Assembly (NCBI GenBank): GCA_028706105.1
Contig: JAQWCF010000005.1
Location: 1 to 39,668 of the forward strand
Length of the DNA: 39,668 bases
Reading direction: 5' to 3'
Origin: Candidatus Margulisiibacteriota bacterium
GTDB lineage: Bacteria > Margulisbacteria > Riflemargulisbacteria > GWF2-35-9 > DYQY01
The notes beneath the pieces were generated by a model. That model searched no databases. It saw only the letters and a list, made by a program, of their open reading frames with translations, and was not told the origin of the DNA. The position numbers were made by a program, and so were the translations under genes. The number at the start of each line of letters is the position of its first letter. Position 1 is the stretch's first letter. Shown here piece after piece: positions 31,694-38,782 of this stretch.

Positions 31694-33502
31694 ATGCAGT
31701 TTGAAAAAGGACATAATAATTTTTTGAGAAAGATACAAAAGGATTACCCCTTAGTGAATAGACCAGAGGCTGAGTTGTATCGAGAAATTTTTTCGTATTC
31801 AGAAGTTCCCAAAATTGTGTTTGATGACCATTTAATTGCCTTTGATGTTCCTGAACAAGTTTTTATTACAGATACTACCTTCCGTGATGGACAGCAAGCC
31901 CGTGAGCCTTTTACTGTTAAGCAAATAGTAGATGTTTATAAATTACTTAGCAAACTAAGTGGCGAACAAGGGATTATCCGACAATCAGAATTTTTTATGT
32001 ATTCCGATAAGGATAAATTAGCCTTAGAAAAAGTTTTAGAATTAGGGCTAAAATTTCCTGAAGTAACTGGTTGGATTAGAGCCCAGAAAAGTGACTTTGA
32101 TCTTTTAAAGCAGTTTGACCTAAAAGAAACAGGGATATTAACCAGTGTTTCTGATTATCATATTTACATGAAATTAAAGATGGACAGAAAACAAGCTTTT
32201 GATTTTTATGTAGACATTGTTGCTCATTCTTTAGATAAAGGAATTATCCCAAGGTGTCATTTCGAAGATATTACGAGAGCAGATTTGTATGGATTTACTA
32301 TTCCTTTAGCTCAAAAGCTTATGCAAATGTCCAAAGAAGCCGGTATTCCAGTTAAAATAAGACTTTGTGATACGATGGGTTTTGGGGTTCCCTATTCTGG
32401 AGCCATTGCACCAAGAGGAGTTGCAAAACTTTGTCATGCTTTTAGAAATGATGCAGGTGTTCCTTCTGAATGGCTAGAATGGCATGGTCATAATGATTTT
32501 CATAAGGTTTTAGCTAATACAACCGAAGCCTGGTTACATGGTGTTGCAGGTGCCAACTGTGCCTTGTTTGGTTTGGGTGAACGAACTGGAAATTGTCCAA
32601 CAGAAGGAATGATTTTTGAGTATATGGGGTTATTCGGTCATCAGGCAGGAATTGATACAACTGTAATTACTGAATTGAAAGAGTACTTCGAGAAAGAGTT
32701 AGGTCAGGCTTTTCCAACAAACTATCCATTTATTGGAGATGATTTTAATACCACTAAAGCTGGAATTCATGCTGATGGTATGGTTAAGAATGAAGAAATT
32801 TATAATGTTTTTGATACAGTGGCTCTGCTTAATAGAGAACCGGGAGTAAGTATTACTGATAAGACCGGAACCGCTGGAGTTATCCATTGGGTGTATAAAC
32901 ATTATCCCAAAGCACAGGAACTGGGCTTAACCAAGAAACACCCAAAAGTTATTAAGATTTATGACTGGATAGTTGCAGAATATAATTTTGGAAGAATTAC
33001 TTCGATATCTGACCAAGAGATGGAAAAGGCTATAAGGTACTATCTTCCCGAGTTAGTTCATACTACTTATTTGGAATTACGTAGGAGAATAACGGAGACA
33101 GCTGTCAAAATCATTGAAGAAACAGCAGTTATGTCTGAACTTAAGTCTTTGGATCCTAAAAAGTTTGAACCAATCTTAGTTCGACTTGCCCAGAATGATC
33201 CAGCAATGAAGCTTATCTCTATAACAAATGAAGAAGGCAAGAAATTAGGCAAGAATATTACTCAGTTATGTGATAAAAAGGCTTATGAAGAGAAGATGCT
33301 GGATGTAGACTTTTCTGATAGACAGTGGTTTGTCGAACCAATGAGTGATGGTAATACTCATATTTCAGAAATTTATATGTCAAAAATTACTAATTATCTA
33401 ACAATGACAGTTTCGGCTCCAATTTTTGATGATTCAGACCACATTGTTGGGATACTTGCGATAGACTTCAATTTTGATGAACTAGCAAACGAGGTAGATT
33501 AA
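31694..33502 (+). CDS. Probable Re-citrate synthase fused to a C-terminal Cache/PDC-like domain
   Basis: The 602-aa protein starts at ATG 31694, 6 nt after AAAGG (31683-31687). GTG 31673 is rejected because it lies in a repeat. Residues about 50-480 form a DRE-TIM metallolyase: ITDTTFRDGQQAREPF (58-73), FEDITRADL, LCDTMGFGVP, metal-binding HGHND (264-268) and GLGERTGN. The FRDGQQAR wording is that of Re-type citrate synthases of anaerobes rather than LeuA or homocitrate synthase. Residues about 490-602 look like a Cache/PDC sensor domain: MKLISITNEEGKKLG, DFSDRQWF, YMSKITNYLTMTVSAPIFDD and VGILAIDFNFDEL. Such domains normally sit outside the cell, but no signal or membrane segment is present here. 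Aconitase follows 4 nt later, supporting citrate as product. The fusion is the main oddity. Confidence 0.8.
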   Translation: MQFEKGHNNFLRKIQKDYPLVNRPEAELYREIFSYSEVPKIVFDDHLIAFDVPEQVFITDTTFRDGQQAREPFTVKQIVDVYKLLSKLSGEQGIIRQSEFFMYSDKDKLALEKVLELGLKFPEVTGWIRAQKSDFDLLKQFDLKETGILTSVSDYHIYMKLKMDRKQAFDFYVDIVAHSLDKGIIPRCHFEDITRADLYGFTIPLAQKLMQMSKEAGIPVKIRLCDTMGFGVPYSGAIAPRGVAKLCHAFRNDAGVPSEWLEWHGHNDFHKVLANTTEAWLHGVAGANCALFGLGERTGNCPTEGMIFEYMGLFGHQAGIDTTVITELKEYFEKELGQAFPTNYPFIGDDFNTTKAGIHADGMVKNEEIYNVFDTVALLNREPGVSITDKTGTAGVIHWVYKHYPKAQELGLTKKHPKVIKIYDWIVAEYNFGRITSISDQEMEKAIRYYLPELVHTTYLELRRRITETAVKIIEETAVMSELKSLDPKKFEPILVRLAQNDPAMKLISITNEEGKKLGKNITQLCDKKAYEEKMLDVDFSDRQWFVEPMSDGNTHISEIYMSKITNYLTMTVSAPIFDDSDHIVGILAIDFNFDELANEVD

Positions 33503-33506
33503 TAAG

Positions 33507-35426
33507 ATGAATTTAGTTGAGAAGATAATTAATAAACATATTGTTGATAAATCTGGTGAACAAGAAATTGGAATTAAAATAGACCAAACATTAACTCAAG
33601 ACGCAACAGGCACCATGGCATATTTGGAGTTTGAGGCAATTGGAAGAGAAGCTATTTCAACAGAGTTGTCAGTCAGTTACGTTGACCATAATACTTTACA
33701 AGATGGATTCGAAAATGCCGATGACCATAGATATTTACAGTCAATAGCTGCTAAATATGGCTTGTATTTTTCTAAAGCTGGAAATGGTATCTGTCATCAA
33801 GTTCATTTAGAAACATTTGGTAAGCCAGGTAAAACCTTATTAGGTTCTGATTCTCATACTCCAACTGGCGGAGGACTTGGAATGATCGCTATCGGTGCTG
33901 GCGGACTGGATATAGCTACTGCTTTAGCTGGTGGAGCCTTTTATTTGCCAACACCTAAGGTTTTGAAAGTAGAACTTACGGGGAAACTTTCTCCTTTTGT
34001 TACTGCAAAAGATGTTATTTTAAAGCTATTACAGATTCTTACAACTAAAGGAAATGTTGGATATATTGTGGAGTACACGGGTAAAGGGGTTAAAACTTTA
34101 TCAGTTCCAGAAAGAGCAACTATTGCTAATATGGGCGCTGAGTTGGGCGTGACAACTTCAGTCTTCCCTTCGGATGAAGTAACCAAAGAATTTTTAAGAG
34201 CGCAGGGCAGAGAAAATGATTGGATAGAGCTGATGGCCGATAAAGATGCTACATACAATAAAGAAATCTCTATTAACCTTGCTACACTAAAGCCGATGAT
34301 TGCTTTGCCTCATTCGCCAGATAATGTCAAAGAGGTTTCAGAAGTTGCTGGGATGAAGGTTAACCAAGTTCTTATTGGGAGCTGTACAAATAGTTCGTAT
34401 AAAGATTTATATACAGTGGCTATGCTTTTAAAAGATAAACAAGTTTCTACCGACGTTTCTTTTGGTGTTGCTCCTGGCTCTAAGCAGGTGCTAGAGATGA
34501 TGATGGAAACTGGCTTGATGAAAAACATTGTAGAAGCTGGTGGCAGAGTTTTAGAGTCTAGTTGTGGTTTTTGTATAGGGATGGGACAGTCTCCTGCTAC
34601 GGATGCGGTTAGTATAAGAACTAATAATCGTAATTTTTATGGAAGAAGTGGAACCAACAGTGCTGGTATTTATTTAGTTAGCCCAGAGACAGCGGTTGCT
34701 TGTGCTTTAACTGGAGAGATTACTGATCCGTCAGAGTTTTTTCAAAAAGCAGTCGAATTTAAACAACCATCAAAATTTTTAGTAAATAATTCTTTGGTGA
34801 TTAAGCCTTTACCTGTTAACGAACGGGCTAAGGTAGAAATATTAAAAGGTCCCAACATTGGGCCGCCTCCAATCAGTAGTCGCCTGGCAGAAAGCTTACA
34901 AACAAAGGTAGTTATTAAAGTCGGAGACAAAATAACCACAGACCATATTATGCCTGCAGGTCGATTTTTGAAGTTTCGTTCAAATATAGATAAGTATTCA
35001 CAGGCAGTTTTTAACGATGTTGAACCAAAATTTGCTGATAAATGTAAGGCTAACAAGTCAGGTGGATTTGATAATTTAATAGTAGCAGGACTTAGTTATG
35101 GCCAAGGTTCATCAAGGGAACATGCAGCTATTTGCCCTATGTATTTGGGTGTAAAAGTTGTTATTGTTAAATCTATTGAGCGAATACATAGGGCAAATCT
35201 TATAAATTTTGGAATTATTCCTTTGGTTTTTAAAAAGGAAAGCGACTATGCTAGAGTTAAAGCTGAAGAGATTTTTTCTTTTAACAAGATTAGAGAACAG
35301 ATTAAACAAGATTTTGTGGTTATGGAAAGTGCCTCTGGTAATAAATTCGAGTTAGTTGCTGGATTTTCTGAAAGAGAAATAGAACAATTGCTTGCTGGTG
35401 GTAAGCTTAATCTACTTAAGGAGTAA
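33507..35426 (+). CDS. acnA: Aconitate hydratase
   Basis: Aconitase isomerises citrate to isocitrate with a 4Fe-4S cluster. The 639-aa protein has cluster ligands Cys293 in GSCTNSS and Cys353/Cys356 in SSCGFCIGMG, substrate-binding LLGSDSHTPTGGGLGM near the N-terminus and the C-terminal swivel domain with TDHIMPAGRFLKFRSN and GLSYGQGSSREHAA. The length and domain order fit the shorter bacterial aconitases, with both catalytic and swivel parts in one chain, which excludes LeuC. It lies 4 nt after the probable citrate synthase and 2 nt before proS, with AATAAG as a weak ribosome-binding site. No isocitrate dehydrogenase gene is in the window. Confidence 0.93.
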   Translation: MNLVEKIINKHIVDKSGEQEIGIKIDQTLTQDATGTMAYLEFEAIGREAISTELSVSYVDHNTLQDGFENADDHRYLQSIAAKYGLYFSKAGNGICHQVHLETFGKPGKTLLGSDSHTPTGGGLGMIAIGAGGLDIATALAGGAFYLPTPKVLKVELTGKLSPFVTAKDVILKLLQILTTKGNVGYIVEYTGKGVKTLSVPERATIANMGAELGVTTSVFPSDEVTKEFLRAQGRENDWIELMADKDATYNKEISINLATLKPMIALPHSPDNVKEVSEVAGMKVNQVLIGSCTNSSYKDLYTVAMLLKDKQVSTDVSFGVAPGSKQVLEMMMETGLMKNIVEAGGRVLESSCGFCIGMGQSPATDAVSIRTNNRNFYGRSGTNSAGIYLVSPETAVACALTGEITDPSEFFQKAVEFKQPSKFLVNNSLVIKPLPVNERAKVEILKGPNIGPPPISSRLAESLQTKVVIKVGDKITTDHIMPAGRFLKFRSNIDKYSQAVFNDVEPKFADKCKANKSGGFDNLIVAGLSYGQGSSREHAAICPMYLGVKVVIVKSIERIHRANLINFGIIPLVFKKESDYARVKAEEIFSFNKIREQIKQDFVVMESASGNKFELVAGFSEREIEQLLAGGKLNLLKE

Positions 35427-37172: not shown

Positions 37173-37793
37173 ATGACTTGGCCAACAATAATAATAATTT
37201 TTGTAAGCTTATTTACATTGTTTAATAATATAAATTATAATCCTCAAACTAACTGTAATCCACAAGAATTTCAGATGCGACAAACAGAGTATGACCAGTA
37301 CCTTCCTTATGATACTAGTTATCAGATTGTTTCAGCAAATTTATATCAGACAATTGTTTCTTATGTTATGAATTATAATAAAAATTTAGTATTAACTGAT
37401 GTATTGGAAATAGCAGAAGCAAACGTTAAATATGGGATAGAGTATAATGTAGACCCATTATTATTAACTGCTCAGCAGTCAGCAGAATCAAGTTTTAATA
37501 GACATGCAGTATCTCCATCTGGAGCAAGAGGTATTGGGCAGTTTATGCCGTTTAATTTTCCTGCTTATAATATAACCGATCCCCACAACGTAGCGCAGGG
37601 GATAAAAGCACAAGCTAAGATGATGAGAGAGTTACTGGATATGTGGAAGGGTAATATTAACTATGCCTTAGCTTCGTATGTGGAAGGGTGTAATTCTATA
37701 AAATCAAAAGGCTCTCAAGCATTTAAGCCTTCAACTCAGGGTTACGTTGATAAGATTTTAAAAACTTATGAGAATCTCAAAAAATTAACATGA
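37173..37793 (+). CDS. Lytic transglycosylase (SLT domain)
   Basis: Lytic transglycosylases cut peptidoglycan between MurNAc and GlcNAc and form anhydro ends. The 206-aa protein has an N-terminal hydrophobic segment (IIIIFVSLFTLF, signal peptide or anchor) and an SLT-type domain from about 80: YNVDPLLLTAQQSAESSFN with the catalytic Glu105, AVSPSGARGIGQFMP and a downstream ALASYVEGC in place of the more usual ALAAYNAG. The start lies 7 nt after proS. It overlaps the next gene by 4 nt. A periplasmic location is expected. Confidence 0.88.
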   Translation: MTWPTIIIIFVSLFTLFNNINYNPQTNCNPQEFQMRQTEYDQYLPYDTSYQIVSANLYQTIVSYVMNYNKNLVLTDVLEIAEANVKYGIEYNVDPLLLTAQQSAESSFNRHAVSPSGARGIGQFMPFNFPAYNITDPHNVAQGIKAQAKMMRELLDMWKGNINYALASYVEGCNSIKSKGSQAFKPSTQGYVDKILKTYENLKKLT

Positions 37794-38782
37794 AAAAAGT
37801 AGCGTTTACCACCACTATTCCCCAAGAGTATATTTGGGCGGCTAGTGCTATTCCTGTAGACCTAAACAATCTTTTTATATTAGGGCAATCTAAAAAGTTT
37901 ATAATATCTGGAGAAAAACATGGTGTTACCAGAAATACTTGCAGTTGGATCAAGGGATTGATGGGTGCAGTTGTAGAGTATGAAGAAGAATTTGACACTA
38001 TTATCGCTGTTACAGAGGGCGACTGTAGTAACAATCATGGATTGGTTAATTTGTGCCAGCATTTTATGCCGTCGCTTAAGGTTGTTTCTTTTGCTTATCC
38101 GGCAGATAGGGATGAACGAAAGCTGAGGTATGAGTTAGATAAATTAGGTGAACATTTTGGAGTTAGTTATGAGCAAGCAATGGAAATTAAAGAAAAACTA
38201 GATTTAGTAAGAGAACGATTAAGAGTATTAGACATTTTGTTTTATCAGAAGAAAAATGTTAGTGCTACTGAGTTTCAAAGATTAATGGTTGCTTCTTCGG
38301 ATTTTGGCAGCAACGTGGAAGTTTATAGTAATAAAATTGAAGAGTTAATAAAGCTAGCAGAAACTAGTCAATCAAATGTTCACACCATTTCCATAGGGTA
38401 TATGGGCGTTCCAACAATAATTAGTAATCTTTTTGGTTATTTAGAAGATGAGCTTGGGGTGAAGCTGTCTTATTTTGAAGTAGAAAATGATTTTGCTATG
38501 CTTCAAGAAAGCAAAGATTTAATAGAGCAATATCAGAACTTTAATTACCCGTATGAGTTAAATCGAAGAATCATTGAAGTAGAAAAACAAATAAAACAAA
38601 GAAATTTAAAAGGAATTATTCATTATGCTCAAGCTTTTTGTCATCGACAACTTGATGATATTATTATCAAAAACAGACTTAGCGTTCCTGTTTTGACAAT
38701 CGAAGGCGATGCTCCTGGTGAGCTTGATATGAGGACAAAGATAAGGATAGAATGTTTTGTAGAAAGGTTAAAAGAAGCATGA
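37790..38782 (+). CDS. 2-hydroxyacyl-CoA dehydratase (HgdB/FldC)-like protein
   Basis: The fold matches subunits of 2-hydroxyglutaryl-CoA dehydratases, which bind a 4Fe-4S cluster. The 330-aa protein has cysteines at the expected places: Cys51 in RNTCSWIKG, Cys79 in TEGDCSNNHG and Cys284 in AQAFCHRQLDD. It also has IEGDAPGELDMRTKIRIECF at the C-terminus. The partner subunit and the ATP-dependent activator (HgdC) are not nearby. Family members without partners are known in several lineages and have uncertain roles. It overlaps the lytic transglycosylase and GT2 genes by ATGA junctions, so it is coupled to envelope genes rather than to fermentation genes. The family call is fairly sure; activity is not. 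Confidence 0.82.
   Translation: MKKVAFTTTIPQEYIWAASAIPVDLNNLFILGQSKKFIISGEKHGVTRNTCSWIKGLMGAVVEYEEEFDTIIAVTEGDCSNNHGLVNLCQHFMPSLKVVSFAYPADRDERKLRYELDKLGEHFGVSYEQAMEIKEKLDLVRERLRVLDILFYQKKNVSATEFQRLMVASSDFGSNVEVYSNKIEELIKLAETSQSNVHTISIGYMGVPTIISNLFGYLEDELGVKLSYFEVENDFAMLQESKDLIEQYQNFNYPYELNRRIIEVEKQIKQRNLKGIIHYAQAFCHRQLDDIIIKNRLSVPVLTIEGDAPGELDMRTKIRIECFVERLKEA

Follow-up and report, generated by a model that had tools for sequence, protein, structure and literature searches.

The window, i.e., the whole stretch of 39,668 nucleotides that was analyzed, contains a gene for a protein of 602 aa that combines a citrate synthase-like catalytic part with a sensor domain. Its reading frame (31694-33502, forward strand) has no internal stop codon across all 602 aa, and the opposite strand is rich in stop codons. 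The features of this gene, its downstream neighbor, and a further citrate synthase gene of the same genome are the following:

31694-33502, forward strand: 602-aa Re-type citrate synthase-like enzyme that carries a Cache domain at its C-terminus (open reading frame and full-length homologues in many phyla)
31859-32680, forward strand: DRE-TIM (HMGL-like) catalytic domain, residues 56-329 (PF00682, E=6.7e-27)
32819-33046, forward strand: residues 376-451, i.e., the catalytic subdomains that follow the barrel, and the linker (about here the orthologues of Clostridia stop)
33047-33496, forward strand: single Cache/PDC domain, residues 452-601, a long N-terminal helix (452-478) followed by the PDC fold (AlphaFold2 model, PDB fold matches, PF22673)
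33320-33331, forward strand: putative pocket motif R543-x-W545-F546 (R543 in 83/88, W545 in 88/88, F546 in 87/88 tails; aligned with R126, W128 and Y129 of PctA)
33374-33376, forward strand: putative pocket residue Y561 (Y in 76/88, F in 10/88; aligned with Y144 of PctA)
33464-33466, forward strand: putative pocket residue D591 (88/88; corresponds to D173 of PctA in the alignment, whereas the pyruvate-binding KinD has no counterpart)
33507-35426, forward strand: aconitase gene, 639 aa (NF005558 aconitate hydratase, 908.8 bits versus a cut-off of 612)
Outside the window, contig C8:6733-7902 (L113:6682-8046) of the same genome (G000), reverse strand: canonical citrate synthase (NF010635, 700.7 bits)

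The two signatures of the catalytic part, FRDGQQAR and HGHND, are residues 63-70 (31880-31903) and 264-268 (32483-32497), respectively, and the signature residues FRDGQQ and HGHND are nearly invariant in 88 homologues. In a tree of 75 rows the protein grouped with clostridial sequences, which are Re-citrate synthases according to the literature, and apart from the isopropylmalate synthases. Together with the PF00682 match and the signatures, this grouping bore out the sequence-only reading, which had compared the catalytic part with Re-type citrate synthases. Judged from its sequence, the protein is a Re-type citrate synthase-like enzyme, and citrate as the product and Re stereochemistry are predicted. 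Because a canonical citrate synthase is also present, the Re-type enzyme is not the only route to citrate in this genome, and Si- and Re-type enzymes coexist. This second enzyme could also be taken to mean that the catalytic part belongs to another acyltransferase of the superfamily, e.g., a homocitrate or citramalate synthase. The NCBIfam results would agree with that, as all matches to the 602-aa protein were far below the cut-offs, including those to the homocitrate and isopropylmalate synthase models, and none of the models named it. However, the protein clusters with the clostridial orthologues (about 50-56% identity) and not with the isopropylmalate synthases, the aconitase gene is directly downstream, and coexistence of Si- and Re-type citrate synthases has been reported for C. 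thermocellum (PMC12016533), which makes a different acyltransferase very unlikely.

The aconitase gene starts 5 nt past the stop codon of the citrate synthase gene. In several lineages genes for aconitase, isocitrate dehydrogenase or malate dehydrogenase adjoin the gene for the enzyme, which points to the oxidative branch leading to 2-oxoglutarate and glutamate. Other neighbors were observed as well. In Desulfobacterota aspS is found upstream of the Re-citrate synthase gene at 34 loci (e.g., L037, L045, L061), often preceded by hisS (22 loci). Further downstream in the window, an open reading frame of 330 aa (37790-38782, forward strand), which by eye resembles subunits of 2-hydroxyacyl-CoA dehydratases, follows a prolyl-tRNA synthetase-like reading frame.

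Cache domains are normally displayed on the outside of the bacterial cell, where they detect amino acids. The C-terminal tail of the enzyme matched the Pfam family MCP-like_PDC_1 (PF22673), a family that covers the first PDC module of chemoreceptor sensor domains, over residues 515-598 (33236-33487) with 48.8 bits, compared to a curated cut-off of 27. A profile built from 75 tails detected sensor domains in the PDB, i.e., those of C. jejuni Tlp3 (5.6e-11), B. subtilis KinD (2.6e-10) and P. aeruginosa PctA (3.3e-7), and also those of P. aeruginosa PctB and PctC, all with E values from 5.6e-11 to 9.5e-5. The AlphaFold2 model of residues 430-602, calculated from the family alignment of the tail, had a pLDDT of 87.8 and a pTM of 0.79, compared to a pLDDT of 39 for the single-sequence prediction of the whole protein. 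It contains the long N-terminal helix and the PAS-like sheet fold, and KinD, Tlp3, CitA and PctA were among its best folds in the PDB (probability 1.00, E values from 1e-8 to 2e-5), KinD being the best structural match. Both Pfam and the model revealed one PDC module instead of the usual two. The Cache-type structures that were recovered for the C-terminus, the profile matches and the Pfam score thus confirmed, at the level of sequence and model, that the tail is a genuine Cache/PDC domain. The proposed C-terminal Cache domain was therefore retained, but not its confinement to the last 110-120 residues, because the domain starts near residue 452.

The suggested cytoplasmic location also held. 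A transmembrane segment was not found in the 602-aa protein, for which the highest Kyte-Doolittle mean of 19 residues was 0.98, and thus the flanking transmembrane helices and the extracytoplasmic placement, which are usual for Cache domains although not strictly defining, are absent here. No further Cache domain was found in the genome beyond the citrate synthase tail, so the tail is not a stray receptor fragment.

The homologue search revealed the full architecture of DRE-TIM and Cache domains in 88 full-length sequences, and its conservation shows that the fusion is neither a chance event nor a misassembly. Full-length homologues are present in relatives within the same phylum and, mostly with 45-55% identity, in Desulfobacterota, Nitrospirota, Spirochaetota, Omnitrophota, Elusimicrobiota, Lentisphaerota, Fibrobacterota, Armatimonadota, Auribacterota and Margulisiibacteriota. 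In Desulfobacterota the enzyme was found in 195 of 395 genomes and, among the matches listed (the weakest were left out), all run through the Cache domain to at least residue 597 of the query. The architecture is thus the rule in Desulfobacterota and is found in many further phyla as well, and the impression that it is special to this genome had to be given up. A unique or recent fusion was ruled out by the wide distribution and by the lack of another Cache domain in the genome.

In Clostridia the enzyme was found in 83 of 391 genomes and, among the matches listed, all stop before the Cache domain, near query residues 444-465. These orthologues have about 450-495 aa and predicted masses of 51.7-56.5 kDa. 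The tail is therefore not common to all Re-citrate synthases, and the possibility that it is an ordinary part of every such enzyme was ruled out. On the tree calculated from the catalytic part, only three changes are required to account for which genes have the tail and which do not, i.e., one clostridial clade and the two single genes L017 and L108. Gain and loss of the tail cannot be told apart, because the root of the tree is poorly placed. L017 (genome G014) and L108 each stand alone as a tail-less orthologue surrounded by tailed ones, and an isocitrate dehydrogenase gene is near both. They are probably single losses of the Cache domain, judged from their position in the tree, and could serve as natural controls for its function. 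Remnants of a decayed tail were searched for behind the tail-less genes, and none were found. Tail and catalytic domain have diverged in step (Mantel r=0.58), and the tail has been retained in ten or more phyla.

The conservation within the tail pointed to a ligand pocket. Four residues, G515, W545, S563 and D591, are invariant in all 88 tails. In PctA the carboxylate of the amino acid ligand is gripped by an arginine and a tryptophan, and the amino group by a tyrosine and an aspartate (PMC10104139, PMC11237719). According to the HMM alignments, from which the correspondences between tail and PctA were taken, residues R543, W545, Y561 and D591 occupy these positions. The core of the motif, [RK]xW[YFW]x13-17[YFW]x27-34D, was present with the published spacing in 83 of the 88 tails, compared to 0.2% of shuffled sequences, and of the eight tail columns with the highest conservation, four are positions of the amino-acid motif (P=5e-5). 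Two positions deviate. The aromatic residue or leucine that leads the motif five residues before the arginine (Y121 in PctA) is a valine here and is present in only 11 of the 88 tails, and S563 stands where PctA and Tlp3 have an aspartate and where KinD also has a serine.

KinD binds pyruvate and other carboxylates, and the Cache domain might likewise sense a keto or organic acid near the reaction, such as pyruvate, 2-oxoglutarate, malate or citrate, and thereby couple citrate synthesis to the carbon supply. Its rank as best structural match and the three residues Y561, S563 and T566 that it has in common with the tail speak for such a ligand. However, KinD has no counterparts of W545 and D591, two residues that never vary in the tails and match the amino-acid receptors, and sensing of an organic acid is thus rather unlikely. 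Because the motif core is found in nearly all tails, and KinD has the arginine but not the tryptophan and the aspartate, an amino acid is the likeliest ligand predicted from the sequence, with a small carboxylate in second place.

It is also conceivable that the tail binds no ligand and is a structural or oligomerization module, which e.g. holds the tetramer together or mediates a protein interaction. Cache and PAS domains frequently dimerize (PMC8694187), and the tail-less orthologues in Clostridia as well as L017 and L108 would fit to a module of this kind. However, the best conserved residues of the tail are those of the pocket and not those of the surface, and a purely structural role is unlikely.

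From the observed fusion, fold, conservation, motif core, distribution and gene context we infer the class of the ligand, the direction of its effect and the allostery of the following mechanism. The N-terminal DRE-TIM barrel would condense acetyl-CoA and oxaloacetate, as suggested by its family and by the adjacent aconitase gene. In the single C-terminal Cache domain, a small metabolite would occupy the pocket in which chemoreceptors such as PctA and Tlp3 hold amino acids. Its carboxylate would be contacted by R543 and W545 and its amino group by Y561 and D591, and an amino acid would be more likely than a keto or dicarboxylic acid. Binding could shift the long Cache helix (452-478), which joins the Cache domain to the catalytic subdomains, and thereby change the activity. 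A product amino acid would then exert feedback on the carbon flow into 2-oxoglutarate and glutamate, like the leucine-binding domain in LeuA, and by this analogy allosteric control via the Cache domain is plausible.

The protein would thus be a Re-type citrate synthase with its own intracellular amino-acid sensor for feedback control of this carbon flow, a reading to which we assign a probability of about 50%. It is supported by the Cache fold in Pfam, profile and model, by the motif core, by D591, which is invariant here and missing in the pyruvate-binding KinD, by the retention of the tail in so many phyla and its co-divergence with the catalytic domain, and by the aconitase and isocitrate dehydrogenase neighbors. 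Against it count the rarity of the leading aromatic residue, the single PDC module, the serine shared with KinD, the canonical citrate synthase of the genome, and the fact that Clostridia manage without the tail. The wider proposal is that, in ten or more phyla, a cytoplasmic Cache domain that binds amino acids exerts allosteric control over a large branch of the Re-citrate synthases. The universal extracellular amino-acid sensor would then have found a second use inside the cell, as a feedback switch at the entry to the synthesis of 2-oxoglutarate and glutamate. This is held more tentatively, at somewhat less than even odds.

Citrate synthase is one of the main points at which central metabolism is controlled, and to our knowledge Cache domains have been described almost only as outside-facing sensors. 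If the proposal is true, the enzyme would clearly exemplify a Cache domain that operates within an enzyme of metabolism. The sensor pocket, conserved among sulfate reducers, syntrophs and phyla without cultured members, makes the regulation directly testable. Neither the family of the enzyme nor that of the sensor is new, and the two domains would appear on one protein in an automatic Pfam annotation. Within the limited literature searched, nothing relevant was found on a citrate synthase with a Cache domain, on cytoplasmic Cache domains, or on citrate synthase with PAS domains and allostery, and nothing on the control of Re-type citrate synthases in anaerobes. The Cache domain of Re-citrate synthases is thus a common, putative control module that is apparently unstudied.

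The position of the Cache domain has a parallel in LeuA (2-isopropylmalate synthase), a DRE-TIM enzyme with a C-terminal regulatory domain that binds a small molecule, leucine. As had been proposed, the Cache domain sits where LeuA has this regulatory domain, but the two folds are unrelated, and the leucine-binding/dimer domain of LeuA gave no Pfam match in the 602-aa protein at E values up to 1. The dCache_1AA sensors PctA and Tlp3 have the fold in common with the tail as well as the arginine, tryptophan, aromatic residue, tyrosine and aspartate of the motif at matching spacing. The tail differs from them in that it is a single PDC module, is cytoplasmic, is fused to an enzyme, and does not conserve the first aromatic residue of the motif. 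The sensor domain of the kinase KinD of Bacillus subtilis resembles the tail in its fold and in R543, Y561 and S563, but it is extracellular, consists of two PDC modules, has pyruvate as a ligand, and is without equivalents of W545 and D591.

Among the enzymes, the clostridial Re-citrate synthases, including that of Clostridium kluyveri (Li et al. 2007, doi 10.1128/JB.00198-07), are homologous to the 602-aa protein in the DRE-TIM catalytic domain, and the clostridial orthologues that were sampled (about 43-56% identity) are without the Cache domain. In contrast, the orthologues of Syntrophaceae have the same architecture as the 602-aa protein at about 51% identity. In a sample of 51 genomes of this family the tail was present in every full-length match (26 loci fetched), and the predicted masses were 71.0-73.3 kDa, with the exception of one gene at 65.6 kDa. 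The Cache tail thus explains why the Re-citrate synthases of Syntrophaceae have about 72 kDa and those of Clostridia about 52 kDa. Kim et al. are said to have reported in 2013 that the purified Re-citrate synthase of Syntrophus aciditrophicus (SYN_02536) is a tetramer with tagged subunits of 72,892 Da, and we know of no sensor domain or regulation described for this enzyme. The agreement of this subunit mass with the masses predicted for Syntrophaceae suggests that a tailed enzyme has probably already been assayed.
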